This document shows positions 7,082 through 63,200 of a stretch of DNA of 64,000 bases, in pieces (position 1 is the stretch's first letter; each line of letters opens with the position of its first letter). The translations under genes were made by a program, and so were the position numbers. The notes below the pieces were generated by a model. That model was not told the DNA's origin and made no database searches. It was given only the letters and a program-made list of their open reading frames with translations. Source of the DNA: Cryobacterium sp. PH31-O1 (GTDB lineage Bacteria > Actinomycetota > Actinomycetes > Actinomycetales > Microbacteriaceae); assembly GCF_030063455.1 (NCBI RefSeq), contig NZ_JASITB010000001.1:62001-126000 (forward strand), written 5' to 3'.

Positions 7082-7154
7082 TCCGCATTGATGGAACGCT
7101 CTCATTTTCTACAGCGCAAAACCTTTCCTTGTAACCCTTACCAGAAGGTCAAAG

Positions 7155-8171: not shown

Positions 8172-8208
8172 GACGCTCGCTCTCTATAGAGTTTGATCCC
8201 AAACCCGA

Positions 8209-8250
8209 TTGGGCCGGTGTCCCCTCTGAGGACACCGGCCCAATTTTGTT
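8209..8250 (+). terminator. intrinsic terminator after sugar ABC operon
   Basis: A perfect 14-bp stem (8209-8222 with 8230-8243) with a 7-base loop is followed by TTTTGTT. Because the next gene is convergent, it may stop transcription from both sides. Confidence 0.9.
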
Positions 8251-8303
8251 AGCGCATCGGTTGGTTCTGACCCAAGCCCACGTGCTGATGTCGAAGGCAT
8301 CGG

Positions 8304-9167: not shown

Positions 9168-9201
9168 TTGGCTGTCTCTCTGTTGAGCCCCAATATTGGC
9201 G

Positions 9202-10128: not shown

Positions 10129-10151
10129 CAGGGCTCCCTGTCGGTGAACGG

Positions 10152-11120
10152 TTAAGAACGGGTGGATGCCGCTAGGGCCGACAAATTGTCGAAACCGGGC
10201 CCGCTGGTGGGGATAGCGATGTTGAAGACTTCGGCAATGACCTGCGTCCAGCCGTGGATGAAGTAGACCCACCCGTCCTCGACCTGGAGAGACCTGCCGT
10301 CCTGCGCCGAGCGGGCTTGATCGAGGAAGACCAAGTCCCCGCGGTAATTGAGATCCCACACGACAGCGTGCTCGGGAAAGATGGCGGCGGCGGAGAGCGG
10401 TGAACCTGGCGCGTCTTTACCGAGCCCGGTCGCATTGATAACGACGGAATACGGGCGAGCATCGGCCAGCACCGCGTCGTTGTCGGTTGATGTGGGAGTC
10501 GTGACCGTCGTCAGGGCTGTGCCGCTCTGTGAATTCTCGTGAACCGCGGTGAGAGTCTCAAGCCGGCCCAGGCTGCGATTTGTTACGATGACGCGTCCGG
10601 GCCGGTCGGAGCCGCGTTCAGGGCGGCTCAAGTACCAGTCGATCGCGATTGCTGATCCGCCCGCACCGAAAATGACGACATCCGTGTCGTGTGCGGCGAA
10701 GTGGCCGTCGGGCAGGAACGAGTCGAGCGCATACCCCGATGAAATTGGGTCTTTCGCGTGGGCTCGAAACCGTCCGTCACGTTTGGACAGACAACTGACT
10801 TCATCCATGAGGATTGCCAGCGGGTCGATGTCGTCGAAGAGGTCGTGTGCTGCTCGATACAGGTCGATCTTGTGGGTCGTTACCAACGCCCCGAGGCTCA
10901 GAGCGTCATTCTTGAGAAAGTTGACCACCGTGCGGTACTGGGCGTCAGGTGCGTGCAACGGCAGATCAATGCCGACAAGTTCAACCTCGCCCAGACCGAG
11001 TGCTTCAGCCCACAGCGGGAAGACCGTGCGGATCGAGGAGCGCCCCGTTGTCACGCCGACAAAGTAGAAGGTTGGCGTTGTCGCTGGTTCGAGGGTGTCG
11101 AAAGTATAGGTGCGAGTCAC
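10152..11120 (-). CDS. shikimate/quinate dehydrogenase-like oxidoreductase
   Basis: A 322-aa protein with the AroE fold. The N-terminal substrate domain has GVTTGRSSIRTVFPLW and GALVTTHKIDLY; the Lys of THK occupies the place of the catalytic Lys. The NADP domain starts at VVIFGAGGSAIAIDWYL and includes NATGLGKDAPGSPL. The start is GTG 11120 with GAGAAG upstream; the open frame extends back into the aldolase gene and should be ignored. It is longer than true AroE (about 270 aa) and sits in a sugar-catabolic operon, so I infer a different cyclic or polyol-type substrate rather than an aromatic-pathway role. Confidence 0.82.
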   Translation of the reverse strand: MTRTYTFDTLEPATTPTFYFVGVTTGRSSIRTVFPLWAEALGLGEVELVGIDLPLHAPDAQYRTVVNFLKNDALSLGALVTTHKIDLYRAAHDLFDDIDPLAILMDEVSCLSKRDGRFRAHAKDPISSGYALDSFLPDGHFAAHDTDVVIFGAGGSAIAIDWYLSRPERGSDRPGRVIVTNRSLGRLETLTAVHENSQSGTALTTVTTPTSTDNDAVLADARPYSVVINATGLGKDAPGSPLSAAAIFPEHAVVWDLNYRGDLVFLDQARSAQDGRSLQVEDGWVYFIHGWTQVIAEVFNIAIPTSGPGFDNLSALAASTRS

Positions 11121-11148
11121 TGTGTCGTTCTCTTCTCTCTGGAATGCG

Positions 11149-11796
11149 TTACGCCACGAAGGCAGAAGCTGCTGCGACGGCTTTCCGGGTGGTTTCCGCG
11201 ATAATTGTGAACTGACCGTTGGTGATTTGATCTCGCGGAGCAATCCAGGTACCGCCAATGGCGAATACGCTCGGAAGCGACAGATACGAGGCAAGGTTGG
11301 ACGGGCGGATGCCGCCGGTCGGCATGAACCGGATGCCCAGCGCAGCCAATGGTGGTGCCAGCGCTGCAAGGGCTGCCGCACCGCCCGAGAGTTCAGCGGG
11401 AAAGAATTTGAGGTACGTATGGCCGTTCTCGGCCGCGGCGAGCATTTCAGATGCCGTGACCGCGCCGGGCACGAAGGGGAGCCCTGATGCGGCCGCAGCG
11501 CCGGAGAGCGTTGTGGTGAATCCGGGAGCAACACCGAATTGGGCGCCCGCGGCAACTGCCGCGTCTATCTGTACCGTCGTGAGGAGTGTGCCAGCGCCGA
11601 CGAGAAAGGTCGGCACTTCATCCCTTATCGCTCGGATTGCGTCGAGTGCTGCGGGGGTACGGAGGGTGACTTCCATCGTTGGGAGCCCGGCTGCTAAGAG
11701 GGTGCGCGCGAGTTCCACTCCCTGAGCGGCGTCCTCAATCTCAACGACTGGCACGATGCGCGCCGCGGCGAGACGTTCCATTACGGAAAGACTCAT
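11149..11796 (-). CDS. KDPG/KHG-type 2-keto-3-deoxy acid aldolase
   Basis: A 215-aa class I aldolase. Catalytic Glu42 is in TMEVTLR, the Schiff-base Lys130 in YLKFFPAE, and the phosphate-loop-like FMPTGGI is present, as in Eda. It would cleave a 2-keto-3-deoxy sugar acid (phosphate) to pyruvate and an aldehyde. The start ATG 11796 overlaps the stop of the upstream cupin isomerase (ATGA). The frame is open a further 18 codons upstream, but the coupling favours 11796. It anchors the locus as a sugar-acid pathway. Confidence 0.92.
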   Translation of the reverse strand: MSLSVMERLAAARIVPVVEIEDAAQGVELARTLLAAGLPTMEVTLRTPAALDAIRAIRDEVPTFLVGAGTLLTTVQIDAAVAAGAQFGVAPGFTTTLSGAAAASGLPFVPGAVTASEMLAAAENGHTYLKFFPAELSGGAAALAALAPPLAALGIRFMPTGGIRPSNLASYLSLPSVFAIGGTWIAPRDQITNGQFTIIAETTRKAVAAASAFVA

Positions 11797-12413
11797 GATG
11801 TCTGACCCCGCGTGTAGCCGATGTGGCGGGGGTTGGGAATTGTGGTCCACCCAGCGTCACCATCGTGCACGACGAGAGTCTTCATGCCTCCCGCGTCGGA
11901 GATTATGCCGTAATTCTGCCCCGCATCCGCTGAATAACAAAACAACGTGACGAACGGCTCGGTTCCGACATTGACGCTACGGTGTACCCATTGACCGGGA
12001 ACGTTCACGGCTTTACCCGCTGTAAGTTCGATGGCCTGGGAATCGCCGTCGACGGTGTCGAGGAGCATGACGCCTTTACCGCTCAAGCAATAGTAGAGCT
12101 CTGCCCGGTCCGACGTCGTGTGAAGGTGCCCGCGGGTGACCGCATATTCGTCACCGTACGTGCCAGGCAGAACCGTGCTCGTACCGATAATGAGAGCCCC
12201 TGACCCATCTTGGTACTTTTGCTCGTTCACGGAGTAAACCAGGGTATCGGCTGCCGCCGTTGATACCTGCTGGCTCCAGGACGCCTCGCTCAGGTAAACC
12301 CCGGCCATGTCGGTGATGTGCTTCTCATAGCGGCGTGAGCTTCCAGTTAGGTCTCCGGTTGCGAAGACCTCCAACAGCGTCGGCTGATCTACGGGGTGTT
12401 GAGTGTGCAACAT
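11793..12413 (-). CDS. cupin-type phosphoglucose isomerase-like protein
   Basis: A 206-aa protein matching the cupin (archaeal-type) glucose-6-phosphate isomerase family. Metal-site motifs are TRGHLHTTSDRAELYYCL, giving the His-x-His and Glu ligands, and VNVPGQWVHRSVNVG, giving the second His. It probably interconverts an aldose and a ketose phosphate of the local pathway. It has a strong ribosome site (GAGGAGG) before ATG 12413. It is the first gene of the five-gene leftward operon; an RpiR-type operator lies 26 bases upstream of the start codon. Its presence in a bacterium that would have an ordinary Pgi suggests a dedicated substrate (inference). Confidence 0.85.
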   Translation of the reverse strand: MLHTQHPVDQPTLLEVFATGDLTGSSRRYEKHITDMAGVYLSEASWSQQVSTAAADTLVYSVNEQKYQDGSGALIIGTSTVLPGTYGDEYAVTRGHLHTTSDRAELYYCLSGKGVMLLDTVDGDSQAIELTAGKAVNVPGQWVHRSVNVGTEPFVTLFCYSADAGQNYGIISDAGGMKTLVVHDGDAGWTTIPNPRHIGYTRGQTS

Positions 12414-40381: not shown

Positions 40382-40622
40382 TCAGATGATCGGGAGTGTC
40401 TCGTTAACGGTGTTCCCGCCGGTTTTCATTAGTAGGATTCTGCTTTCGCCCAGCGGTCTCGGAAGGTGATGGCGAAGGCGTTGAGAGTTGGCTTCCACCG
40501 CATCGTCCATCGCAGTCGGCCAACCCCAGTGGGGTCGAGACTGCGAGTGACTAGATACAAGCATTTTAGAGCGGCTCGCTCGGTGGGGAAATGTTCTCGA
40601 GCTCGCACCGCCCGCCGGTATC
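40382..40622 (-). pseudogene. IS256-family transposase, C-terminal half
   Basis: The minus-strand frame beginning in the target site reads RYRRAVRAREHFPTERAALK, then CLYLVTRSLDPTG and WTMRWKPTLNAFAITF, and stops at 40429. This is the conserved end of an IS256-family (Mutator-like) transposase. The element end appears to lie near 40385 (GGGAGTGTCTCGTTAACGG, on the plus strand). The Tn3 transposon at 40623 cuts the gene here; the other half is at 52730. Confidence 0.88.
40618..40622. repeat. 5-bp target site duplication, left copy (GTATC)
   Basis: GTATC directly precedes the left terminal repeat. The same five bases directly follow the right terminal repeat at 52730-52734, as expected for Tn3-family transposition. 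Confidence 0.9.
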
Positions 40623-40694
40623 GGGGCACGAGGAACATTGGAACGAAAAGTCACGCTAACGCCCGGCCGGGCCCGATCTGAGCGAGCTCTGGTG
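40623..40694 (+). repeat. left terminal inverted repeat of the Tn3-family transposon
   Basis: The outer 39 bases (40623-40661) match the right end with two mismatches and resemble the classical Tn3 repeat (GGAACGAAAA core). Similarity continues inward to 40694, giving about 72 bases with six mismatches, longer than the usual 38-bp ends. Confidence 0.9.
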
Positions 40695-40742
40695 CGCCCA
40701 GTACAGACGTGGTGATCAGTGATCGGCGATTGGACGTAGGTT

Positions 40743-43700
40743 GTGGTTGTGCCTGTTGACTTCTTGACCGACGTAGAAGCGGCCAGGTTCGGCCGGTTCG
40801 ATGGTGTGCCGTCCCGTGCTGATCTGGAGCGGATGTTTTTCCTCGATGACGTGGATCAGGCGCTCGTCGGGGTGCGCCGTGGGGACCACAATCGGCTGGG
40901 CTTCAGCTTGTTGCTGACCACGGTCCGGTATGTGGGGACGTTCCTGGCTGATCCGTTGGACGTGCCCACGATGGTCGTGGACTACCTCGCGGATCAGTTG
41001 GGGATCTCGGACCCGTCCTGTGTGAAGCAGTACCTGGAGCGGCGCTCGACCCGGTTCGAGCACGCGGAGGAGATCAAGACCGCCAACGGGCTGAGGAATT
41101 TCGGATCGGCCGAGGCTGAACTGGAGGCGTGGGTGGACGCCCGGGCGTGGACTACGGGCGATGGGCCGAAGGCCATTTTCACAGACGCTACGGTGTGGCT
41201 GCGTGAGCACGAAGTGCTGTTGCCCGGGGTCAGTACCCTGACCCGGCTGGTAGCCCGGGTCCGTGACGCGGCTACTGCACGCTTGTGGGACACCCTGTCC
41301 TGCCTGACGACCGAGGAGCAGCGGCGGATGTTGGGGTCGTTGTTGGTGGTTCCGGCCGGGGCACGGGTCTCGGACCTGGAGCGGTGGCGCCAGGGTCCCT
41401 CGCGGGCGTCGGGCCCATCGATGATCAAGGCGTTGGACCGGGTCGCCCAGATCAGGGGCCTCGGATTCTCGGGCCTGGGCGTGGAGGGAGTGGTGCCTCG
41501 CCGGCGTCTGGTCGAGCTGGCCCGCTACGGGATGGCGGGTAAGGCCACCGCGTTGGAACGTCACCCGGAGCCCCGCAAGATCGCGACCCTGTTGGCCACA
41601 GTCGTGCACCTGGAGGCCACGGCAACCGACGACGCCCTGGACCTGCTCGATCTGCTGCTGAGCACCGAGCTCGTGGGCAAGGCAAAGCGGGAAGCGGATA
41701 AGGCCACGGTCCGCCGTCATCCGCAGCTCGCTAAGGCGTCCGCCCAGCTGGCAGCCGCGATGGGTGTCCTGTTCGAGGCCACCGCAGGCAATGAACACAT
41801 GGACCTGCGAGACATCTGGGCGGCGATCGACGCGATCGTCTCCAGGCCCCAGCTGCGCGCGGCGCTGGCCACGGTCACCGAGATGCTGCCGCCCCCGGAC
41901 GCTGTCGACTTCAGCGACTGGCGCAAGGATCTGACCGGGCGGATCGTGACGGTCAGCGGCTTCCTGAAGATCCTTCCCGACGTCATAACGTTCGGTGCGA
42001 ACCCGGAGGCCGTCGCCGTACTCGACGCGTTGGGCGACTTACCTGCCCTGCTGAGCAGTCGCAAGAAGCCGACCGTGAACGACATCCATGCTGGTGTAGT
42101 GACGGGTCCGTGGAAGCGGTTGGTGTTTGGGGAGTCCCCGATACCGGACGGGAGTATCGACAGGTCCGCGTATGTGTTCTGTGTCCTCGAGCAGTTCCAC
42201 CACCACCTGCGGCGGCGTGACGTGTACGCCGCCGCGTCCGACCGGTGGCGCGACCCGCAGGCGGACCTGCTCGCCGGGGCCGAGTGGGTGGGCGTCAAGG
42301 ACACGGTCCTGATAGCCCTGGGCCTGCCCGATAACCCCGACGCGCTCCTCGCTGGGCACGCCCGTGAGCTGGACGAGGCCTACCGGCAGGTCGGCGGGCG
42401 TCTGGTGACCAACACCGCGGCGAGCGTCGATCATCAGGGCAAGCTGCATGTCGCGAGCCTCAAAGCTGTCCCTGAGCCACCGAGCCTGGTCGACCTGCGT
42501 AGGCGCACCGCCGCGATGATGCCCCTGGTGGAGCTCCCCGAGCTGATCTTGGAGGTCATGGGCTGGGAGCCCGGGTTCGAAGAAGCCTTCACCGCCCTGT
42601 CCGGGGGCACGTCCCGGCTGAAGGACCTGCGGGTCACGATCGCCGCGGCGCTGACCGCGCACTCCTTGAACATCGGGTTCACCCCGATCACCAAGAAGGG
42701 CATCGAGAGCCTGGAACGGGACCGGATCAGCCACGTCGACCAGAACTACCTGCGCGCCCAGACGTACGCGGCGGCCAACGCCACGCTCATCGGGGCTCAG
42801 GCGAGGATTCCGTTCGCGACCGCGCTGGGTGGCGGGCTCGTCGCGGCGGTGGACGGGATGCGGTTCGTCGTTCCGGTCCCGTCCCTGTTTGCTCGCCCGA
42901 ACCGCAAGTACTTCGGGCCCAAGCGCGGCATGACCTGGCTGAACATGATCAACAACCAGGCCGCGGGGCTGGGCTCCAAAGTTGTCGCGGGCACCCCCAA
43001 GGACTCCCTCCACGCGATCGACGTGTTCTTCGGCCAGGACGGCGGGCCGACCCCGGAGGTATTCGTGACCGACACCGGGTCTTACTCCGACCTGACCTTC
43101 GGCCTCGTCCACCTGCTCGGCAAGCAGTACCGGCCCGCGCTGGCCGATCTGCCGGACCAGAAACTGTGGCGGATCAGCACCGACGCCGACTACGGGCCTC
43201 TGAACACCGCGGCCCGCGGGAAGATCGACCTGGCCAAGGTCCGCCGGCACTGGCCCGGCATCCTGCGAGTCGTCGGGTCCATCTACACCGGCACGGTGCG
43301 GGCCTACGACATGGTCAAGATGCTGCAACGCGACGGGTCACCCACCCCGCTGGGAGACGCGATCGCCGCGTACGGGCGGATCTTCAAGTCCCTGCACGTC
43401 CTGACGTACCTCGACGACGAGGTCTACCGCCGCGACATCAAGGGCATCCGGAACCTGCAAGAAGGGCGCCACGCCCTCGCGGAGAAGATCTTCCACGGCA
43501 AGAAAGGCCAGCTCTACCAGCGCTACCAAACCGGGATGGAAGACCAGCTCGGAGCCCTGGGCCTTGTCCTGAACTGCGTAGTCCTGTGGAACACGTCCTA
43601 CCTCAACGCCGCCCTAGACCAGCTACTCGCACAGGGATACCCGGTCCTGGACGACGACGCAGCCCGACTGTCGCCATTCATCCGCCGCCACCTGGACGTC

Positions 43701-43793
43701 CACGGAAAATACTCCTTCGTCATACCCGAACTCCTCGGCGCCCTGCGCGAACTGCGCGACCCCGACGCCAGCGAAAAGGACGACAACGAATGA
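40743..43793 (+). CDS. tnpA: Tn3-family transposase
   Basis: A 1016-aa DDE transposase of normal Tn3-family length. Catalytic residues are Asp704 (AAVDGMRF), Asp777 (VTDTGSYSD) and Glu907 (NLQEGRHAL). The strongly conserved GMEDQLGALGLVLNCVVLWN follows near the C-terminus. The start is GTG 40743, or GTG 40749. It should bind the terminal repeats and move the element by replicative transposition. The gene looks intact. It ends one codon before the Rhs frame, in the same reading frame. Confidence 0.93.
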   Translation: MVVPVDFLTDVEAARFGRFDGVPSRADLERMFFLDDVDQALVGVRRGDHNRLGFSLLLTTVRYVGTFLADPLDVPTMVVDYLADQLGISDPSCVKQYLERRSTRFEHAEEIKTANGLRNFGSAEAELEAWVDARAWTTGDGPKAIFTDATVWLREHEVLLPGVSTLTRLVARVRDAATARLWDTLSCLTTEEQRRMLGSLLVVPAGARVSDLERWRQGPSRASGPSMIKALDRVAQIRGLGFSGLGVEGVVPRRRLVELARYGMAGKATALERHPEPRKIATLLATVVHLEATATDDALDLLDLLLSTELVGKAKREADKATVRRHPQLAKASAQLAAAMGVLFEATAGNEHMDLRDIWAAIDAIVSRPQLRAALATVTEMLPPPDAVDFSDWRKDLTGRIVTVSGFLKILPDVITFGANPEAVAVLDALGDLPALLSSRKKPTVNDIHAGVVTGPWKRLVFGESPIPDGSIDRSAYVFCVLEQFHHHLRRRDVYAAASDRWRDPQADLLAGAEWVGVKDTVLIALGLPDNPDALLAGHARELDEAYRQVGGRLVTNTAASVDHQGKLHVASLKAVPEPPSLVDLRRRTAAMMPLVELPELILEVMGWEPGFEEAFTALSGGTSRLKDLRVTIAAALTAHSLNIGFTPITKKGIESLERDRISHVDQNYLRAQTYAAANATLIGAQARIPFATALGGGLVAAVDGMRFVVPVPSLFARPNRKYFGPKRGMTWLNMINNQAAGLGSKVVAGTPKDSLHAIDVFFGQDGGPTPEVFVTDTGSYSDLTFGLVHLLGKQYRPALADLPDQKLWRISTDADYGPLNTAARGKIDLAKVRRHWPGILRVVGSIYTGTVRAYDMVKMLQRDGSPTPLGDAIAAYGRIFKSLHVLTYLDDEVYRRDIKGIRNLQEGRHALAEKIFHGKKGQLYQRYQTGMEDQLGALGLVLNCVVLWNTSYLNAALDQLLAQGYPVLDDDAARLSPFIRRHLDVHGKYSFVIPELLGALRELRDPDASEKDDNE

Positions 43794-43796
43794 ACA

Positions 43797-46700
43797 ATGC
43801 TGCGCCATGGAACCGGCGGTCCAACAGGCGCTAAGAGATATCCCGTGGGGCTAGCCGACGAAGACGACTGGAAGGGGTACGTGCGTGACGGCTACGACAC
43901 CGTCTACGGGACGTCCACCGTGCGTGGCTCCGCCACGTGGTCCTTCGTCACGAACACGCCCGCGCCGACGCCTCCGCAGGCCACGGCCGCACCGGCCGAT
44001 CAGAGCGTCTCGAGGACGTTGACGCCGACATTCACCGCCGCTCCGGTGACGGACGTGAATGGGCATCCGGTGAAATATCAGGTCCGCATCGCGAGCGGAT
44101 CCGACGGTAAGACCGGCGCCCTGATCAACTCGGGCTGGTTGACGACTCCCACGTGGACGGTCCCCGCCGGGACCCTGCAAGACGGCGGGGCCTACACCTG
44201 GGTGGTGCTTACCGACGATGGTTTCGACCAGCTGGATGCGTCGTGGCGGAACCGTCTCCAGGTGAATCTGCGTATCGGCGACGCCGGTCCGGCACCGACC
44301 GACTCGGCCGGGCCGGTGACGGTGAACCTGGCCAACGGCAACGTGGCCGTGGGGTTCACGTCGCCGACCGTGAGTACGGTGGGCGGTCCGATTGGGATGT
44401 CGTTCAGCTACAACTCGCAGCAGCCCAGCAATGCCGGCCTGACCGGCTCCTATTACGACGTCACTCCGCCCGCCGGGCAGGCTCCGTCGTTCGATTTCAC
44501 CGGGAAGACGCCGGTGCTGGTCCGCACGGATTCGCAGGTGTCGTTCCAATGGGGCGCTGATTCGCCCGGCCCCTCGTTGAAGAGGGATAATTTCATGGCT
44601 CGCTGGTCTGGCTTTGTCACCCCGCCAACGTCGGGTAGTTACACGTTCGGGGTGACCCGCGACAATGGAACCCGCCTGCGCGTCAACAACACCCAGGTGA
44701 TTGACCAGTGGTCCGGGTGGACGTCTGCCGTGTCGTGGGGAACCCCGATCGCGTTGGCTCAGACTCCCGTTGCCTTCTCGATGGACTATTACGATGACGG
44801 CGGACCCGCCAACGTCGAACTGTGGGTGCGCGACGCGGGCGGCGTGGAGTACATCGTCCCGGCCGGGTGGTTCACCAAGGCCGTGCAATCCCTCCCGGTG
44901 GGCTGGTCGGTGTCGACCCCACTCTCTGGCGCTGGCGGTGCCTATGCTTTGGCGCAGGTGACGGAAGCGTCCGTGGTCCTCACCGACGCCAGCGGCGGCG
45001 TGCACACGTATGTCAAAGCATCTACCGGCGGCTACACGCCCCCGGTCGGTGAATACGGTGTTTTGGCGCTCGACGCGACCGGTCAGGTCACCCTCACCTC
45101 CGACGACGGCACCGTCTATTCCTTCAACGCGCCAGGCAAGGTGCAATCGTCCACCACCCCGGCTGACGCGCTGAAACCGGCCAGCCCGGTCTCCACGTAT
45201 CGCCCCGGCACGGGACAGATCGACCGTGTCTCCGACCGGCTCTCCGCGGTAGTCCCGGCGACGACTCCGCCGAGCTTCCTCCGTGAAGTGGTCTTCGCCT
45301 ACGCCGGCGATACCGCCACCAGCGTCGGTCTGACATCGGCAGATTCCGACGGTACGGGCTTGGCGTGTCCGGTACCCACCGGGTATGCGGCCCCGCCTGC
45401 CGGTGCGCTGTGTCGGATCGTCTACCCGGGGCATGTGGCGGGCGCCGCGGACACGACGCAGCTGTATTATGACGTCTCCGGCCTGCTGGTGCGGATCAAA
45501 GATCCCGGTGATGAACTCACCGACTTCGGCTACACCAGCGGTCGCCTCTCCACCATCCGCGACTCCCTCGCCAACGACTGGCTCGCCGCCGACACCACCC
45601 GAGTGCCCACTGGCCCGGTCGTAACAACGATCGGCTACGACGCTCAAGGCCGCGCAGTCACCGTCGCCCTGCCTGCGCCGGACGGCGTCACCGTCAGTGC
45701 CCGCCCGTCCAAGACCTACACCTACGGTGCCGGCGTCAGTTATGTCGACGTTGCCGGAATCGTCGTGCCGACCACCGCACCGTCAAATGGGCACGCGCGG
45801 ACGGTGACCTTCGACAGCGGCTACCGGCAACTGACGGACATGAGCGCGAGCGGTTTGACGGTGTTGGCGGTGTGGAACGAGAAGGACATGCCGCTGTCGG
45901 CGACGGACGCCCAGGGGCGAATGTCCACCACCCTCTACAACGGTCAAGACCGTGCCACCGACAGTTACGGCCCGGCACCGACGAGTTGCTTCGGGCCTGA
46001 CCGGCGCCCCGTGGCTTCGTGCCCGATCGTTCCGGCGCACTCAGCGACCAGTTACGACCAGGGCCTGGTCGGGCTGAACGCCCAGTACTTCCCCAACGCG
46101 TCCCTCACCGCCACCCCCACCGCGTTCGGCCTCGGAATCGGAACAGCGGGCGGCGCGGTGTCCCAGAACTGGGCCGCTGCCGCACCGACGACCGGTATTC
46201 CAGCCGACAACTGGTCGCTGCGCCTGACCGGATTGGTCACCTTCCCCGCCGCGGGAACCTTCACCTTCAAAACCTTCGCCGACGACGGCACCAAAGTATG
46301 GATCGATGATGTCCTCCTCGTCAACGACTGGGTCCCCAGCGCCGAACACTGGTCACCGAACAACCTCGCCGTCACCCGCACGGCCGGGCAACAGTCACGC
46401 ATCCGCGTGGAGTACTTCGACCTGACCGGCGCGGCCAGACTGGAACTGCACTGGGTCCTCCCGGGCGGAACCACCCAGCTGATTCCCGGCAGCGCCCTCA
46501 CCCCCGACTACGGACTGGCCACCGCCACCCTCACCGACGATGCGGCGCCCGTCGGCGTCGCCGGAGTATCCGATACACAGGTCCCCGACCTGGCCACCGC
46601 AGCCGAGTATGCCAACCCGTGGCTGGGTGAAGCGACCGCGACGATCGTCGACCCGGCCGGGCTGAACCTGCGCACCGAAACCACCTTTGAAGCCCTCGGC

Positions 46701-48899
46701 AGCGGTTACCTGCGCCGCACCAGCAAAAGACTGCCCGCCGCAGTCGCCACCGGCGCCACCGCAGCTGTGGCCGGGACCACGTTCGCCTACTACGGTGACG
46801 CAGAAACGTTTGAAGCCGCCAACGGCACCGGCCCCGTTTGCGGCCTTCCGGCCAATACGTCGCAGTCCGGGTTCCTCCGCACGGATACCGGGCCCACCCC
46901 GGCCGTGGGCTCCGCGATTGTCACGACGTATGCCTACGACCTCCTCGGGCGTGCCGTGGGTACGAAACGCTCGGGGGATTCGGCGTGGACGTGCACGACG
47001 TTCGACGCGCGCGGCCGCACCAATCAAGTCACCTACCCCGCCTACGGCACCGCTGCGGCACGCACATCAACCTTCTCCTACACGAGCAACGGAACCCCCG
47101 GTGGTGACCCGCTGACCAGCTGGGACCAAGACGACGGCGTTACCGGCTCACCCACCAACGGACGCGTCACCACCACAACCGACCTCCTCGGCCGCACCGT
47201 CACCTACACAGACGTCTGGGGCACCATCGCCACCACCACTTACGAAAACCTCACCGGCCGGGTCCTGTCCATCTCCACCATCACCCCCGGCGCTGCCGCC
47301 AAGGCACAACAATTCAGTTACACCCTCGACGGACAACTCGACATCGTCAAAGACGCCACCAAACCCATCGCCGACCTCAACTATGTCAACGGGATGCTCG
47401 ACTCCGTGCTGTATCCGACCGGGACCGGCAACAGCGGAAACGGCAGCTCCCTCTCCGGGATCGTCCGCGACCAGGCCGGACGAACGACGGGCATCACCTT
47501 GGCGTTCCCCGTCGCAGCGTCGATCGTCGACCAGGTCGTGCGCGCACAATCCGGTCGGATCCTCACCGACACGCTCACGCGTGGCAGTACCGTCGCTTCC
47601 TCGTCCTACAGCTACGACGCGGGCGGACGCCTCGTCACCGCCGTCATCCCCCGCCACACCCTGAGCTACGCCTACGTCGGCACCGGCGGATGCAGCACCA
47701 GCACCGCCGCCGGACGAAACGGCAACCGCACCGCAGCATCCGACGTGAAAGACGCCGGCACCCCGGCCACCGTCGCCTACTGCTACGACGCGGCCGACCG
47801 GCTCATCAGCACAACAACGGCCAACGCCCAGGCCGGGTCAAATCCAGTCGTCGCCAACAACCTCACCGCCAACACCCTCAAATACGACAGCCACGGCAAC
47901 ACCGTCACCCTCGCCGACCAGACACTCAGCTACGACGTCGCCGACCAGCACCTCGCGACAACGCTGACCGACAACACGACCATCAGTTACCTGCGCGACG
48001 TCACCGGCCGCATCGCCCAACGCACCAGCACCCCACCCGGCGGCCCCGCCAGCACCATCCGCTACACCTACACGAATGAATCCGACAGCCCCTACGGCGT
48101 CCTCGACAGCGCCAGCGTGCACATCCAACGCACCATCGCCCTACCCGGCGGCACCAGCGTCCAAGTGAACGCAGCCGGCTCACAAACCTGGTTCTACCCC
48201 AACCTGCACGGCGACAACATCATGACCGGCAACGGCACCGGAACCCTCAACAGCTACGACCCCTTCGGCCAACCCATCGACCCCGCCACCGGAAACATCG
48301 GCACCCTCACCGCCGACGACACCACCCCCGACAACCTCCCCGGCACAGTCGACTACGGCTGGCTCGGCCAACACGACCGACTCTACGAACACCAAGGAAC
48401 CATCGCCACCACCGAAATGGGCGCCCGCCAATACATCGCAGCACTCGGACACTTCCTCGAAACCGACCCCGTCGAAGGCGGCGTCGACAACGACTATGTA
48501 TACCCCACCGACCCAATCAACCAATTCGACCTCGACGGCAACATGGCCGCCGTACTACTTGGAATGCTGGCGTTCGGTGCAGCCGACGCCTGGAATCCCG
48601 TCGGTTGGGTCGTGCTCGCCGCCGTGGTCGTTGTCGGTGCCGTATACCTCGGATCGCTTGTCTACGAGAAATCACGACATGCAAGAGTCCATAAGTCGGT
48701 TGCCGTCCCTCAACGCGGCAAGACCGTCCAATTTGCACATAAAAAGAGGGCTCAAGCGAAGAACGCCGACAGAATTGGACACGGGAACGACAAGGCAGGA
48801 AAGCCACCTGAAAACCACGAAAATGCGCGCGGGCATTCGGGCGCGCAGAGAATCCCCGCAAACCCCAACAAACGCCACTCGAAACCGAAACTTAGGTAG
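43797..48899 (+). CDS. Rhs-repeat polymorphic toxin with PA14 domains, N-terminus missing
   Basis: A 1700-aa protein. Order of parts: beta-sandwich-like start (residues 15-170), a first PA14-like domain (about 215-360), RHS/YD-type repeats, a second PA14-like domain (about 755-905: [29 protein letters not shown]), then the RHS shell to the conserved [10 protein letters not shown] at about 1572-1581. The tip has a hydrophobic stretch (1585-1622) and a very basic tail of about 78 residues, the probable toxin; I cannot name it. There is no signal peptide or other export domain, and the frame opens one codon after the tnpA stop, so the 5' part was probably lost when the cargo was captured. It may be silent, or exported by an unknown route. 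Confidence 0.85.
47481..48533 (+). repeat. duplicated Rhs core segment, copy 1
   Basis: About 1050 bases of the Rhs gene recur at 49831-50883 (offset exactly 2350, no indels noticed) with few substitutions. The copies diverge abruptly just after the FDL(D/T)G codons that mark the start of the toxin tip. Confidence 0.92.
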
Positions 48900-48904
48900 G
48901 CACC

Positions 48905-49720
48905 GTGAGCACTGAGAGAGTTAATGACCTGATCGCTAAAGGTTGCGACCTTGCGGAGGCCGGTCGGCACTCGGAGGCGATTAAACTCTTCCAATCGGCA
49001 ATCGAACGAGGCGAAGCCTGGGTTGGGCTTGATCTCGGCAATAGTTACCTCGCACTTGGCGATGAGAGTGCGGCGCGAGGGGCGTTCGAGCAGGCCTGGA
49101 CGGCCGGAGATGAAGATGCCGGCTTCAACCTGGCGCAACTTCTCGAGTCCGAAGGCGAAGTCCTGCGCGCGCGGGAGATCTTAGCTGCCCTGGTCGAACA
49201 AAACTATGCGAAGGCCCAAGTGCAGGTGGCGATGTACCTTCGAGCCGACGGTCGAATTTCCGAAGCTGAGGGCCTGTTGTCCCAAGCAATGTCAGACCCT
49301 GGCCCGATCGGTGACCTCGCCTCGGGGATCTTGGGCGATATGCGCTGGCCTGGTCCGAACAGCGATGAAGAACTCCTACGAAGAGGGGCAACCGCTTACC
49401 CGTCGGCACGAGCGGATCTGGCGTTACTCCAGATCGAGACCGGGCGAATCGATGAGGGCGAAGAGACTCTTCGGGCGGGCGTCGCCGCGGACGAAGTCGA
49501 CAGCGTAATTGTCCTTGGAAATCACCTTTCTCGCATCGGCAATACAGAGACCGCAGAGGAGCTGTTCCGCCGTGGCTTCGCGCTGGGCGACGCGCACGCA
49601 GCCTTGAACCTCGGTGTATTGCGATGGGAATCTGGTAAGCGCAAGTCGGCGCGGAAATGGATTCGTCGGGCGGCAGCCTTAGGCGATCAGCGAGCTCAGA
49701 ACTGGCTTGAGAACCATTAG
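48905..49720 (+). CDS. TPR/Sel1-like repeat protein, candidate immunity to Rhs tip 1
   Basis: A 271-aa soluble protein made of helical repeats of about 35 residues (AGRHSEAIKLFQSAIERGEA, LGDESAARGAFEQAWTAGDE, GNTETAEELFRRGFALGDAH). It starts at GTG 48905, five bases after the Rhs stop, in the place where immunity genes stand. TPR/Sel1-type immunity proteins are known for polymorphic toxins. It might instead be a general adaptor. No signal peptide or membrane segment. Confidence 0.8.
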   Translation: MSTERVNDLIAKGCDLAEAGRHSEAIKLFQSAIERGEAWVGLDLGNSYLALGDESAARGAFEQAWTAGDEDAGFNLAQLLESEGEVLRAREILAALVEQNYAKAQVQVAMYLRADGRISEAEGLLSQAMSDPGPIGDLASGILGDMRWPGPNSDEELLRRGATAYPSARADLALLQIETGRIDEGEETLRAGVAADEVDSVIVLGNHLSRIGNTETAEELFRRGFALGDAHAALNLGVLRWESGKRKSARKWIRRAAALGDQRAQNWLENH

Positions 49721-49830
49721 TCAGGGCGTCTTCAACGGGCGCATCCTCCGGGTCTGGTGAAGATCGTGGCGATTCCCGGGAATCACCGACAAGTTCGAGA
49801 CGAACATGACCGCGCTCGCGACCTCGATGT

Positions 49831-50883
49831 CGCACGACGGGAATCACCTGGGCGTTCCCCGCCGCCGCGTCGATCATCGATCAGGTCGTACGCGCACAAT
49901 CCGGTCGGATCCTCACCGACACGCTCACGCGTGGCAGTACCGTCGCTTCCTCGTCCTACAGCGACGACGCGGGCGGACGCCTCGTCACCGCCGTCATCCC
50001 CCGCCACACCCTGAGCTACGCCTACGTCGGCACCGGCGGATGCAGCACCAGCACCGCCGCCGGACGAAACGGCAACCGCACCGGAACATCCGACGTGAAA
50101 GACGCCGGCACCCCAGCCACCGTCGCCTACTGCTACGACGCGGCCGACCGACTCATCAGCACAACAACAGCTAACGCCCAGGCCGGGTCAAATCCAGTCG
50201 TCGCCAACAACCTCACCGCCAACACCCTCAAATACGACAGCCACGGCAACACCGTCACCCTCGCCGACCAGACACTCAGCTACGACGTCGCCGACCAGCA
50301 CCTCGCGACAACGCTGACCGACAACACGACCATCAGTTACCTGCGCGACGTCACCGGCCGCATCGCACAACGCACCAGCACCCCACCCGGCGGCCCCGCC
50401 AGCACCATCCGCTACACCTACACCAACGAATCCGACAGCCCGTACGGCGTCCTCGACAGCGCCGGCGTGCACATCCAACGCACCATCGCCCTACCCGGCG
50501 GCGCCAGCGTCCAAGTGAACGCAGCCGGCTCACAAGCCTGGTTCTACCCCAACCTGCACGGCGACAACATCATGACCGGCAACGGCACCGGAACCCTCAA
50601 CAGCTACGACCCCTTCGGCCAACCCATCGACCCCGTCACCGGAAACATCGGTACCCTCACCGCCGACGACACTACCCCCGATAACCTCCCCGGATCCGCC
50701 GACTACGGCTGGCTCGGCCAACACGACCGACTCTACGAGCACCAAGGCTCCATCGCCACCACCGAAATGGGCGCCAGACAATACATCGCAGCCCTCGGAC
50801 GCTTCCTCGAAGTCGACCCCGTCGAAGGCGGCGTCGAGAACGATTACGTCTACCCGAACGACCCCATCAACCAATTCGACCTC
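49831..50883 (+). repeat. duplicated Rhs core segment, copy 2
   Basis: Second copy of the 1050-base Rhs segment, in the same orientation and in frame throughout. One visible change turns SYSYDAGG into SYSDDAGG. The 110 bases between the TPR gene and this copy show no gene. Confidence 0.92.
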
Positions 50884-51318
50884 ACCGGTGAGGCGAGAAT
50901 CGCCTGGGGCGATGCCTTAGACAATGCGGCGGGGATTCTGGGAATGGCTGCGCTATTTGGTTGTGCCATCTGCGCAGGCTTGTCGGCAGGGATCTCCCTC
51001 GGGCGAGGCATATACAAACTAGCCAATGGACAAAACGGATGGGGTGACATCGCAAGCGCCGCAACTTTCGGAGCAGGCAAGGCCCTCACCTACGGGGCCA
51101 AAATTGCCAAGATCGTAATACTCAAGAGATATCCGACTTGGGTTCGCGGCAACAAGCTCCAGAACGCCCCAATTCGGCGACAAATCAAGCAGAGTTTCGG
51201 GCGCTTCAATCGAAGTGTTGTGCGTCCGTTTCATGTGGCGGAAAGGGAGTACGGGGCAGTGGAATCGACTCGGTATGTGCACGGTCTCGCCAAGCGCTTG
51301 GGCAGGGGTATGAACTAG
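49834..51318 (+). pseudogene. displaced Rhs C-terminal cassette with toxin tip 2 (no proper start)
   Basis: The Rhs frame is open from 49810 but has no ATG or ribosome site; the first possible start is GTG 50095, in mid-repeat. It repeats the Rhs shell through [10 protein letters not shown], then carries a different tip of about 145 residues: a hydrophobic segment ([20 protein letters not shown]), then a basic end ([20 protein letters not shown] to [11 protein letters not shown]) that I cannot assign. This is the layout of orphan rhs-CT modules, which act as silent spare tips that can replace the active tip by recombination through the shared core. It is coupled to the next gene (TAGTG). Confidence 0.85.
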
Positions 51319-51842
51319 TGAAGGACTTCCTGAGACGAGCGCGCCATCGAGGGTTGCCTCTTGCGTGGTTTGCAGCTCTGGCAATTTTCGTCGGTTTGCT
51401 TTTACTGCAGGACTGGTTCTGGGCGACTTGTGTATTCGTCACTGCAGCTATCGGAACATGGGCGCAGCTAAGACGTCCTTCGCGACTGGATGAACCCGTG
51501 TCTTGGGAGGAGTCGATTACGCGTTCGTTGGTACGTATTCCGGCACGAGGAAGTATTTCTTCGGGCCACCCGCTTCTTGGAGTCGTGACAACAGGCGATT
51601 TCGCCGGTCGCTACATGTGGGTGATGCCACACGAGGAAACTTGGTATTTTCTCCTCTCCTGGCGGACTCCCTGGCGTTGGTTCCGTCGCCCGGACGCGGG
51701 CGGGTCTCAGCTGGCGGACGCTGAGTTCGCCGAATGCGTGAATGAGTGGTCGGTGCGTTTTCTTCGGCAGGATTCATACTCGGACGAGGTCTGGCGGCGA
51801 AACTTTTGGTCTCTCCTCAACTCACCGATTGGCACTACCTGA
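51318..51842 (+). CDS. small membrane protein, candidate immunity to Rhs tip 2
   Basis: A 174-aa protein with GTG start overlapping the stop of the cassette by one base. Residues about 14-50 form two hydrophobic segments (LPLAWFAALAIFVGLLLLQD and WATCVFVTAAIGTWAQL), followed by a soluble domain rich in Trp and Arg. Position and coupling suggest the cognate immunity protein; membrane location would fit a toxin acting at the membrane. I recognise no family. Confidence 0.65.
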   Translation: MKDFLRRARHRGLPLAWFAALAIFVGLLLLQDWFWATCVFVTAAIGTWAQLRRPSRLDEPVSWEESITRSLVRIPARGSISSGHPLLGVVTTGDFAGRYMWVMPHEETWYFLLSWRTPWRWFRRPDAGGSQLADAEFAECVNEWSVRFLRQDSYSDEVWRRNFWSLLNSPIGTT

Positions 51843-51987
51843 TCGGGGTTCGAAAGCTGATCAACCGATGGCAGTCAACGTCATCCGCAGGTAAGAACCC
51901 CCCGCGGCAGCTCACATCGGGTCCGGGATCCCACACGAATCGACTGTTCGTTCACGGGTCAAATCAACCGTGGAGGCCTCGATAGCA

Positions 51988-52425
51988 ATGGTAGCTGCGC
52001 AGTCGCGCCTCGGCGCGCTCCGCCAGAATCTTCTCCCGGCCATGGCGAACTCGGTGCGTGAGATTGGTTTCAGGGAGAGCTCAAGTGGTGGGACGTGGAC
52101 GTTGGAAGGGACCAAATCCGGGGTCTTCTGTGAGATTGAATACATCGGATTCTGGCTTGTGTCACTCACCCCCGGCGACGTTACTGTCGAAGTGTTGGAA
52201 GGTGATCCCAAACTTCGCGACTTTTTTGAGTCGTTTGATGTCCGGCCGGTGCTGCTTGTCATCTCTCGAATTGGCCGACATGAGACCGGCTGGTGGCTTC
52301 GTTTCGGGAGGGGTCAAGAGTTTGGCGAACGGACGGATATCGACCGATTTATCGAGAAACGATCCACATATCACGAAGACGTATACGAAATCCGTGCAGG
52401 CGCAACGTTGCCGTCAGTCGAGTGA
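51988..52425 (+). CDS. orphan small protein, possible immunity protein
   Basis: A 145-aa soluble protein with no recognised family. It begins at ATG 51988 (GGAGG eleven bases upstream; an in-frame GTG at 51970 is possible). Motifs such as GGTWTLEGTKSGVFCEIEYI and ETGWWLRFGRGQEFGERTDI give it an alpha/beta look. It stands behind the second candidate immunity gene within the transposon, as orphan immunity genes often do. The 51843-51987 gap holds nothing clear. Confidence 0.6.
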   Translation: MVAAQSRLGALRQNLLPAMANSVREIGFRESSSGGTWTLEGTKSGVFCEIEYIGFWLVSLTPGDVTVEVLEGDPKLRDFFESFDVRPVLLVISRIGRHETGWWLRFGRGQEFGERTDIDRFIEKRSTYHEDVYEIRAGATLPSVE

Positions 52426-52504
52426 TGGCAGGCGTCATCAAGACCTGCGACAGCCAAGTTACTCTTGGTCATATGTCGAATCGGCCGTGGAGCCGAGGGG
52501 CCGT

Positions 52505-52610
52505 GGGGTCTGAGTAGTAATGGAACTCCGCCCGCTGCACGGTCCGAACAGCCAAGGCGGAACGACCGACCCCTTAGCGGACGTTTTCGTTCCATTACTA
52601 CTCAGACCCC
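52505..52610. mobile_element. 106-bp miniature element with Tn3-like ends (TIME-like)
   Basis: The first 22 bases, starting GGGGTCTGAGTAGTAATG, are repeated perfectly and inverted at 52589-52610. The right end extends to a full 38-bp Tn3-type repeat (52573-52610; GGAACGAAAACG core, ending GCTAAG on the minus strand). The outer sequence differs from that of the surrounding transposon, so it derives from another Tn3-family element. Flanks are GCCGT and AAGAC, so no target duplication is seen. It may be a Tn3-derived miniature element or a nested leftover end. Confidence 0.6.
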
Positions 52611-52657
52611 AAGACTCTTAGCGTGTTATTGCGTTTCGTGAGGTGGCCCCTGGACGC

Positions 52658-52729
52658 CACCAGAGCTCGCTCAGATCGGACCCGGTCCGACGTTAGCGTG
52701 ACTTTTCGTACCGATGTTCCTCGTGCCCC
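52658..52729 (-). repeat. right terminal inverted repeat of the Tn3-family transposon
   Basis: Reverse complement of the left end: 39 bases at 52691-52729 with two mismatches and continuing similarity to 52658, six mismatches over 72 bases. Confidence 0.9.
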
Positions 52730-52734
52730 GTATC
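52730..52734. repeat. 5-bp target site duplication, right copy (GTATC)
   Basis: GTATC follows the right terminal repeat directly and equals 40618-40622. Confidence 0.9.
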
Positions 52735-52872
52735 GGGCGTTGAGCGACTCGATCGCTTTGGTGGAGCAGATTACTTGGCGGATCTCGGGGTCGTAGGACC
52801 GGAATGGGGTGAACTCTTCCCATGCCGATTCCCGCAACCGGATGATCGCACCATATTTATGACTGGCTGGGT
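52730..52872 (-). pseudogene. IS256-family transposase, central fragment
   Basis: The minus-strand frame reads KYGAIIRLRESAWEEFTPF, YDPEIRQVICSTKAIESLNA, then RY at the target site. It joins in frame to RYRRAVRARE at 40622 once the transposon and one GTATC are removed. Nothing of the N-terminal half is left; the fragment abuts the end of the multicopper oxidase gene. Confidence 0.85.
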
Positions 52873-60947: not shown

Positions 60948-61286
60948 TTTCGCGCAGCGTGGTCAATTTTTACCGTAAAGCCTGATTCTCGGGGTCGTCT
61001 TTCACTTCCGCTATGGGTATGTAGCGACGTTCTACGTTGCCACCGGAGAAGTGACCTCTCGCCATTGGCGGAAAATACCTAGACAACTCTCAGCTTCGGG
61101 GATAATGTGCCCTCGTCGGCGTCTGTGTGCGCCGACTCCTTCGGGACAGCACGATTTACGTCGCACTGGTGCGCCGCACACATTCAAAATTGGCTGACGC
61201 ATCTTTTAGCACCACAGATCTGCCCGCGACCCGTCGTGCTTCTTGGAAACCCCCGCTGAAAGCCACATCGAGTCAAGGAGCACGTT
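60948..61286. other. intergenic stretch, nothing recognised
   Basis: About 340 bases with no supported gene or RNA. It must contain the promoter of the secreted protein gene at 61287. Confidence 0.5.
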
Positions 61287-62426
61287 GTGAAAAAGTTGGT
61301 CTTTACCGCCGTCGCCTGCGTCACCGCCGTTGCTTCGGCGATGGTCGCAGCCCCGGCATCCGCTGTGGAGATTCCCAATCTCGGGGGTCCCACGGTCTTA
61401 GCGAGCGGCCTTTTTCTGCCGCTCAGTCTGGGGGTCGGTGCGGGCGGCACAACCTACGTCTCGCAGAACGCACTGGGAGTGTTGACGAAGGTCAGCCCCG
61501 GCGGAACGAGCAAGGTTATGGCGAGCGCCAACCCCGGCGATGAACTGGGCGCCGTATCGGTGCGCAGCGGCACGGTCTACTACTCCACCAATACCCAGGA
61601 TCACACGGCATCGGCGCTGTACGCGATGCCGGTCGGTGGTGTGTCTGCGCCACTCGCTGACCTCTACGCCTACGAGAGCACCGCCAACCCCGATCAGGTG
61701 AACACGTACGGATTCGTCGACCTGCCGCAGGCCTGCCTCGACCAGTTCGATCCGGCGGCGCCGACGGGACCCGCCTCCTACGCCGGAATCGTCGATACCC
61801 ACCCGTATGCCAGCCTCCCATTGGAAGACGCGGTGTACGTGGCGGATGCCGGTGCGAACGCCATCCTGAGAGTCGGCTACGACGGAACGGTCAGCACGGC
61901 CGCCGTGCTTCCGGCCGGTGACCCGATCATGGTCACTCCTGAGATCGCCGCCGGTGTCGGGTTCCCGGCCTGCACGGCCGGATTCGGTTATCGGTTCGAA
62001 CCGGTGCCGACCGACGTGGAACAGGGTGGGGACGGCTGGCTCTATGTGACGAGCCTGCCCGGCGGCCCCGAAGACGCGAGCCTCGGCGCCCGCGGCGCAG
62101 TCTACCGGTTCAATCCGGCCGACGGTGAAGTGCAGTTCGTGATGGGCGGGTTCGTTGGCGCGACTGACCTGGCAGTGTCACAACGCACCGGACTGATCGC
62201 CGTGACCGAACTGTTCGGTGGCCCCAATGGCACCGGAGCGGTCTCCGTGTTCCACCCGACGCTTACCGAGCGGGTGCTGCAGATCCCTGTCAGCTCACCG
62301 TCCGCGATCGAACTGGCCGGCAATAGCGTCTACGTCACGACGAACTCCTTCGTGGCCGACGCAACCGGGGCACCGCAACCGATAGGCAAGGTCGTGAAGA
62401 TCTCGGTGAGCCTCGGCGGCGACTAG
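61287..62426 (+). CDS. ScyD/ScyE-family secreted beta-propeller protein
   Basis: A 379-aa protein. A Sec signal peptide (LVFTAVACVTAVASAMVAAP, ASA cleavage site) precedes NHL/SMP30-like propeller repeats: GGTTYVSQNALGVLTKVSPG, DAVYVADAGANAILRVGYDG, GWLYVTSLPGG and GAVYRFNPADGEVQF. This is the pattern of the ScyD/ScyE family, named from scytonemin genes but widespread in actinobacteria with unknown role. The start is GTG 61287 with AAGGAG seven bases upstream. Confidence 0.87.
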   Translation: MKKLVFTAVACVTAVASAMVAAPASAVEIPNLGGPTVLASGLFLPLSLGVGAGGTTYVSQNALGVLTKVSPGGTSKVMASANPGDELGAVSVRSGTVYYSTNTQDHTASALYAMPVGGVSAPLADLYAYESTANPDQVNTYGFVDLPQACLDQFDPAAPTGPASYAGIVDTHPYASLPLEDAVYVADAGANAILRVGYDGTVSTAAVLPAGDPIMVTPEIAAGVGFPACTAGFGYRFEPVPTDVEQGGDGWLYVTSLPGGPEDASLGARGAVYRFNPADGEVQFVMGGFVGATDLAVSQRTGLIAVTELFGGPNGTGAVSVFHPTLTERVLQIPVSSPSAIELAGNSVYVTTNSFVADATGAPQPIGKVVKISVSLGGD

Positions 62427-62455
62427 GCCGCGAATCCACCGCCCAGCCGGAGCTA

Positions 62456-62490
62456 GGGTGACTCGCCAGCCCCGCGCCGGCGAGTCACCC
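62456..62490. terminator. bidirectional terminator hairpin
   Basis: A perfect 12-bp stem (62456-62467 with 62479-62490, 11-base loop) lies between the ends of the convergent ScyD-like and kdpE genes. Confidence 0.7.
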
Positions 62491-62504
62491 GATCCACTCC
62501 TCGC

Positions 62505-63200
62505 TCACGATGCCGGTTCGGGATCGAATCGGTACCCCATGCCTGCCTCGGTCAAAAGGTAACGCGGAGACGCTGGAACAGCCTCCAGTTTCTTGCGCAG
62601 CTGGGCGATGTAGAGCCGCAGATAGCCCGAATCGTTGGCGTGATGTGGTCCCCAGACCTCATTCAGGAGCAGCTCGCGAGTGACGAGCTTGCCCGGGTTT
62701 CGCAGCAACACTTCCAGAATGCGCCATTCCGTCGGGGTGAGCCGAACGGTTTCGGGCTGCGCTGCGCTGCGCCGGGTCACACGCTTGGCCGCGAGATCGA
62801 CGGTAACGGCGCCCAGCTGAACCACCGGTACGTCATCGACAGATGGCACCCTCCGGGTTAGGGCACGGATTCGGGCCAGCAACTCGTCGATCGAGAACGG
62901 TTTGGTGACGTAGTCGTCGGCGCCGAGGTCAAGGGCGTCGACCTTGTCGGAGGCACCCGTGCGCCCGGAGACCACGAGAATTGGCACCTGGCTCCACCCC
63001 CGCACGGCAGCGATGACGGCCATACCGTCGAGCCGAGGCATGCCTAGATCGAGCATGAGAAGGTCGGGGTGCTGCTCGATCACCGCATTGAGTGCGTCGG
63101 CACCGTCGCCAGCGGTAATGATGTCGTAGCCGCGCGCGCCGAGGGTAATGCGGAGTGCCCGCAGAATCTGTGGATCGTCATCGGCGATCAGAATTCTCAT
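62505..63200 (-). CDS. kdpE: KdpE-type response regulator
   Basis: A 231-aa OmpR-class regulator. The receiver domain has acidic pocket ADDDPQ, phosphorylation site Asp51 in LLMLDLGMPRLDG, and the conserved Lys in DDYVTKPFS. The winged-helix output domain is in LTPTEWRILEVLLRNPGKLV and DSGYLRLYIAQLRKKLE. Its overlap with the KdpD-type kinase upstream (ATGA) supports assignment to potassium-transport control. It would switch on kdpFABC under K+ limitation. Confidence 0.9.
   Translation of the reverse strand: MRILIADDDPQILRALRITLGARGYDIITAGDGADALNAVIEQHPDLLMLDLGMPRLDGMAVIAAVRGWSQVPILVVSGRTGASDKVDALDLGADDYVTKPFSIDELLARIRALTRRVPSVDDVPVVQLGAVTVDLAAKRVTRRSAAQPETVRLTPTEWRILEVLLRNPGKLVTRELLLNEVWGPHHANDSGYLRLYIAQLRKKLEAVPASPRYLLTEAGMGYRFDPEPAS

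Follow-up and report, generated by a model that had tools for sequence, protein, structure and literature searches.

Here we describe a Tn3-family transposon that carries part of an Rhs polymorphic-toxin locus in the genome of Cryobacterium sp. PH31-O1 (Microbacteriaceae). The genome (G000) comprises 3.64 Mb in 17 contigs, and the window, i.e. the whole 64-kb stretch of DNA that was analysed, corresponds to C9:62001-126000 of its 967-kb contig 9; positions are given in window coordinates unless a contig is named. Comparisons were made with sets of genomes from the genus (n = 57), the family (n = 299) and the order (n = 347), and with a sample of the class (n = 394).

The element occupies positions 40623-52729 (12,107 bp) and is bounded by terminal inverted repeats of 72 nt that are 92% identical, the left one lying at 40623..40694 on the + strand (GGGGCACGAGG...) and the right one at 52658..52729 on the - strand, with 36 of the outermost 38 bases identical. 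An earlier interpretation of this DNA, referred to here as the sequence-only reading, had placed terminal repeats at this locus with a length of 39 bp; the repeats are there, and the length falls short of the 72 bp measured. When GGGG-starting ends separated by more than 1.5 kb were paired throughout the window and scored over 38 bases, the end pair of the element alone reached 30 or more matches. The sequence GTATC flanks the element on both sides as a 5-bp target duplication (40618..40622 and 52730..52734), and beyond it lies a target gene relic, with its C-terminal side at 40388..40617 (- strand) and the continuation of its reading frame on the far side of the insertion at 52735..52858 (- strand). 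Joining the flanks restores, in frame, the portion of a transposase reading frame that encodes the C terminus. Scanned alone, the window's own piece of this gene has no Pfam match; an intact relative copy was assigned by scan to Transposase_mut, and we take the gene to be of the IS256 type. Six further copies of the target gene were fetched, and every one of them represents the empty site: across the joined flanks the alignments extend over 322-359 bp with 86-92% identity, without gaps in five copies and with one gap, clear of the junction, in the sixth. Because the joined flanks and the six fetched copies run through the empty site, the element can be said to have inserted into the relic of an IS256-type gene, duplicating 5 bp. 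The left flank is widespread in the genus (a 1.39-kb query matched in 35 of 57 genomes, own included), and many of the matches listed consist of the last ~225 bases of the query, i.e. the target gene.

The transposase gene, tnpA (40743..43793, + strand; 1,016 aa), begins 120 bp inside the left end and is directed towards the cargo. The protein contains a full DDE_Tnp_Tn3 domain, scores 795.8 bits against the NCBIfam Tn3 transposase model (cut-off 500), and its residues D704, D777 and E907, which we take to be catalytic, align to the D, D and E of the homologous Tn4430 TnpA. The closest TnpA among the proteins listed, P0124, is 90% identical over its full length. Within the family, relatives are rare (10 of 299 genomes, own included); among the other long matches the highest identities are 49-52%, and a piece of 174 residues reaches 66%. 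None of 16 pattern stretches in viral contigs was a TnpA relative. A recombinase family was not found in the 17 open reading frames (ORFs) of the element that were scanned, ORFs below about 115 aa and a res site not having been looked for. The resolvase that, with a res site, belongs to the usual Tn3 module is thus missing from the ORFs scanned, which is not decisive, since some Tn3-family members, such as IS1071, are said to do without it. A Tn3-type DDE transposase, related inverted repeats well beyond ~38 bp and a 5-bp duplication at a genuine insertion with an empty site place the element in the Tn3 family. The analysis thus confirmed the proposal of a complete 12.1-kb unit with matched ends, a GTATC duplication and a full-length TnpA at a site whose empty form can be restored; Rhs toxin and immunity-candidate genes make up its cargo.

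The rhs gene (43797..48899, + strand; 1,700 aa) starts 3 bp past the tnpA stop and in the same frame. Its product consists of two PA14 stretches, RHS repeats and a variable C-terminal toxin tip, designated CT1. It has the features of an Rhs system in its RHS/YD repeats with a variable C-terminal tip behind them and in the two different tips borne on a near-identical core; the N-terminal export/delivery region is absent. The large Rhs protein of the sequence-only reading is in fact the product of a 5′-truncated gene. Residues 495-1784 of P0006, a partial protein from an unclassified Cryobacterium, align with window Rhs residues 25-1314 with 1267 identities in 1290 positions (98%), and P0006 holds 494 extra residues ahead of the aligned part, so that at least 494 N-terminal residues are missing from the window protein. 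P0015, from a Cryobacterium plasmid, aligns from its own residue 566 and is a net 541 residues longer in front. Residues 1-24 of the window Rhs fall outside both alignments, and P0006 residues 1-493 found no match in the own genome. Since alignment to the longer relatives begins at residue 25 and the own genome has no match to the front, the loss of the rhs front is placed at the tnpA-rhs boundary, near 43866-43869; the junction from the tnpA stop to the first BLAST-aligned rhs codon (residue 25) covers 43794..43868 (+ strand). What the transposon carries is thus roughly the 3′-terminal three quarters of a PA14/RHS polymorphic-toxin gene.

Three other accounts of the rhs gene were rejected. 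That it is intact is ruled out by the longer relatives, and an N-terminal rhs fragment elsewhere in the own genome was searched for and not found. A third Rhs gene of the own genome, of another kind and located outside the window ~37 kb past the element (G000:C9:151329-154727), is only 25-26% identical and was discarded as a source.

Starts were compared by a crude hydrophobic-stretch rule in the 91 relatives longer than 2,100 aa within the 120 listed, out of 552 found. A Sec-like start was scored in 63 of these and not in the other 28. Neither start of the window Rhs is Sec-like by this rule, nor is that of P0006 as recorded, whose listed start may be wrong. In the genus, the Rhs protein found matches in 8 of 57 genomes, namely the own genome and seven more at 50-59% identity, with further strains of the own species outside the comparison. 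The sequence-only reading would have been undermined by the same Rhs genes at this locus in relatives without the ends or tnpA; within this comparison, no other genome of the genus was found to have this rhs. Four genus Rhs loci were fetched, three of which match in parts only by tblastn while the fourth reaches a contig end, and broken rhs genes may be common in the genus. By tblastn, the rhs genes at L045, L046 and L047, from three genus genomes, are split, 5′-short or interrupted by a stop.

The tips and their neighbours follow a recognizable order. CT1 (48534..48899, + strand) matches no Pfam family over the cut-off. Several other Rhs proteins (e.g. P0016, P0039, P0027, P0023 and P0060) share its C-terminal motif. 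The CT1 piece matched 6 of 299 family genomes; one of these is the own genome, and in the remaining five the matches are weak (29-45% identity, E 1.8e-9 to 5e-4). Five bp past the rhs stop begins a gene for a TPR protein (48905..49720, + strand), by position the candidate immunity gene of CT1. It is followed by a spare cassette (49831..51318, + strand), an orphan Rhs 3′ end with a second toxin tip, CT2, recognized from an ungapped duplication of 1,053 bp of the core at 95.6% identity (47481-48533 vs 49831-50883). The main and orphan cores differ in 43 of 350 codons, 26 synonymously and 17 nonsynonymously, with no stops. The frame of the orphan cassette has a stop at 49807 and offers its first start codon only at 50095, an internal GTG. 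CT2 resembles the tip of P0008 (46%). The start of the next ORF (51318..51842, + strand; 174 aa, with a hydrophobic N-terminus) overlaps the stop of the orphan cassette, and its position makes it the candidate immunity gene of CT2; a 151-aa ORF without a family match (51970..52425, + strand) is possibly a further immunity gene. The G+C content of the tips and immunity candidates is 0.56-0.60, vs 0.65-0.66 for the cores. A main rhs gene with orphan tip/immunity pairs alongside is known anatomy (PMC6329079), and recombination with standalone toxin cassettes has been named for such systems (PMC3482391).

Carriage of cargo behind tnpA is not peculiar to the window element and is common to two sister elements, L021 on a Streptomyces rochei plasmid (7873-15335; target duplication GGCCC; TnpA 56% identical) and L063 in the Microbacteriaceae genome G098 (5994-11897; target duplication TTTCA; TnpA 48% identical). 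Both share with it the order end, tnpA, cargo, end, and both have duplications of their own; unlike it, L021 carries a TetR-type regulator, NAD(P)-binding proteins and an integrase (by annotation), and L063 carries caspase-domain and ThsB-TIR-like genes with a serine resolvase. The two sisters keep their recombinase near the right end. The L063 cargo resembles a defence module of the Thoeris type, here borne on a complete Tn3 element. Two other elements, L065 and L011, are compact (~3.8 kb), and for the relatives L018, L019, L020 and L006 no convincing end pair was found.

In its Tn3-type DDE TnpA, GGGG-type ends, 5-bp duplication and possession of passengers, the window element resembles members of the Tn3 family (Tn3, Tn4430, Tn4651 and other subgroups), from which its polymorphic-toxin cargo, the lack of a resolvase among the scanned ORFs and the placement of tnpA, 120 bp from the left end and facing the cargo, set it apart. 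Tn3 elements carry many passengers, including effectors and toxin-antitoxin (TA) pairs (PMC7157771; PMC4549250). The Xanthomonas element TnXax1, likewise of the Tn3 family, has the effector passengers xopE and mlt (PMC7157771; PMC4549250), which are directed at plants, unlike an interbacterial Rhs toxin. TA pairs in Tn3 modules adjoin res and the resolvase gene (PMC7157771), whereas the toxin and immunity candidates described here lie behind tnpA, with no resolvase found among the ORFs scanned.

The sequence-only reading was aware of no Rhs competition locus moved in this manner. For contact toxins moved by transposons in general, a claim of novelty does not hold, since contact-dependent inhibition (CDI) genes of Burkholderia thailandensis reside in a 210-kb transposon flanked by insertion sequences (PMC6350997). 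That element shares with ours the carriage of contact-dependent toxin genes, and differs in having IS2-like flanks, a circle intermediate and a working CDI system, being neither Tn3 nor Rhs. For an Rhs locus in a Tn3 unit, the statement has so far stood: no literature naming one was found in a search judged on titles and abstracts, with subscription papers mostly outside it. The sources consulted list transposons for CDI and prophages for Rhs in a review table (PMC10047993), place Rhs genes of Pseudomonas in genomic islands rather than Tn3 units (PMC12024412), and report a Tn3-type remnant located apart from Rhs (PMC6329079). What is described here is thus a known kind of element whose cargo is unusual and incomplete.

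Recurrence of the unit was not seen. With as many as 3 mismatches allowed, its ends are present in a single one of the 347 order genomes, its own, and among plasmids five records match the element, none with 80% of it. A second copy of the left end with most of tnpA lies at another site, on the contig L007 of a Cryobacterium metagenome-assembled genome, which contains this end and 2.7 kb of tnpA (2.8 kb in all) at 99.8% identity; the copy breaks off inside tnpA, and the contig finishes with 255 bp of a different sequence. Because the left flank of the L007 copy is different, the element appears to have moved within the genus Cryobacterium. Matches to tnpA outside the own genome were found in 21 places, of which G015:C1 and G003:C54 were left out; no Rhs similarity (E 1e-6) was detected in any of 13 extended stretches (L076-L085 and L063-L065, several of them short contigs), nor in six further places tested as short loci only. 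Conversely, none of seven Rhs regions, four of the genus and three from plasmids, contained tnpA. The PA14/RHS proteins of two Microbacteriaceae plasmids, from Cryobacterium LW097 and Clavibacter californiensis, are 59% and 53% identical to the window Rhs over 92% of its length and, unlike it, are annotated as starting ~565-571 codons ahead of the aligned part; the 22.7 kb inspected around each contains no relative of tnpA.

In the class sample, an Rhs core is present in 177 of 394 genomes and a Tn3 DDE domain in 89. Co-location was compared by eye over the best places of each search only, a partial test; among the places listed, the two features lie less than 20 kb apart, besides the element, in G631, G499, G692 and one further pair in the own genome. 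In none of the three other genomes does an end pair enclose both genes: two gave no pair, and the third has one weak pair (27/38) without a duplication. The own-genome pair consists of the third Rhs gene and a second, distant Tn3-type transposase (28% identical; G000:C9:137378-140338, outside the window, ~23 kb past the element), and the two genes lie 11 kb apart. Pairs of ends were sought within each of the two neighbouring 18-kb stretches and none was seen, and simple searches found no inverted-repeat pair around this second transposase. On these comparisons, the Tn3-Rhs unit is a singleton so far.

We favour, with a confidence only a little above even, the reading that the transposon is a mobile store of Rhs toxin tips and immunity genes and not a self-sufficient weapon. 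The unit would move by ordinary TnpA-driven replicative transposition and, because no resolvase was found inside it, cointegrates would be resolved by host recombination or by a resolvase supplied in trans. Without its front, the Rhs protein is unlikely to suffice as a weapon on its own, and it is presumably not exported. The rhs body, whose product is 98% identical to the aligned part of the longer P0006, could instead act as a homology arm for recombination with a resident full-length rhs, into which tips and immunity genes would pass, while the immunity genes would protect the carrier cell; such recombination is probably the chief benefit of the cargo. A more specific form of this proposal, in which the transposon serves as a shuttle, the headless body being the long homology arm for exchange of the tip on arrival in a strain that has its own full-length rhs, with immunity conferred at once, is offered as a tentative idea that is rather improbable as it stands.

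Several observations weigh against the store reading. Recombination with the gene of P0006 would be an extrapolation from a protein record. The truncation of rhs could post-date the insertion, and 28 of the 91 long relatives, like P0006 as recorded, fail the crude Sec rule too. An uninterrupted frame of 1,700 codons immediately downstream of tnpA would be compatible with an intracellular role. The toxicity of CT1 and CT2 and the immunity function of their neighbours are predicted from gene order. Additionally, the second left end, on L007, comes from a metagenome-assembled genome, in which contigs can be misplaced, and the whole unit is seen as a single insertion, with no other complete copy found.

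The strongest competitor is that the cargo is a passive remnant, a piece of rhs and its neighbours trapped between tnpA and the right end and functionless for the element, formed by a deletion before or after insertion, perhaps together with loss of a resolvase. The missing rhs front agrees with this, as do a junction that lies outside the alignments to relatives, the partial rhs pieces that recur at three of the four fetched genus loci (the fourth reaching a contig end), and the recombinase that the two sister elements keep near the right end and that was not found in the window element. A passive remnant sits less well with a frame of 1,700 codons free of stops and little different from P0006, and with core differences that lean synonymous, though the selection responsible may predate the truncation. 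We regard it as doubtful, though still a serious contender.

Less probable again, and in our judgement unlikely, is an addiction module in which a headless Rhs toxin would remain cytoplasmic with its immunity protein and kill cells that lose the element, in the manner of a TA pair. The in-frame position of rhs 3 bp past the tnpA stop, which makes co-expression possible, and that of the TPR gene 5 bp past the rhs stop would suit such an arrangement, and TA pairs are known within Tn3 modules (PMC7157771); against it, CT1 toxicity, neutralization by the TPR protein and instability of a component all have to be assumed.

The sequence-only reading had itself proposed that a working contact-dependent Rhs locus is moved by the transposon. 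Its inventory of the cargo was borne out, with a toxin tip, an adjoining candidate immunity gene and a spare cassette all inside the ends, and its inference of a functional weapon was not. At least 494 N-terminal residues are absent, among them the stretch that holds the Sec-like start of most long relatives, there is no supply of them elsewhere in the genome, and the orphan cassette lacks an in-frame start before its internal GTG; a working weapon is accordingly very improbable. Two unrelated insertions whose ends happen to flank the rhs locus, which the sequence-only reading had named as fatal to its case, can be dismissed almost entirely, given one matched pair of 72-bp repeats at 92%, a single set of identical 5-bp flanks and a target gene restored in frame at an empty site through which six of six fetched copies run.

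The mobile store of tips and immunity genes thus remains the preferred reading. An Rhs toxin-immunity block in a cleanly bounded Tn3 unit is documented here together with its empty site, and because the toxin gene is headless, carriage by Tn3 does not here amount to passing on a working weapon. Should the cargo recombine with resident rhs genes, it would provide a concrete route for the exchange of tips between strains. Furthermore, if L063 is typical, the tnpA-cargo subgroup of Tn3 may be a general carrier of conflict modules in Microbacteriaceae.

Minor features were recorded inside the unit and beyond it. A miniature element of 106 bp with perfect 22-bp outer repeats lies within the Tn3 unit at 52505..52610; no flanking duplication was seen. 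Its right-hand 39 bases coincide exactly with the end of the Tn3 element L011 of the genus, and the end of L010 differs by 1 base. The whole window had no Rfam match at the gathering threshold, and an ORF at 61287-62426 had no Pfam match. Positions 61077-63064 share ~1.6 kb with positions 4847-6548 of L007 at 84-85% identity.

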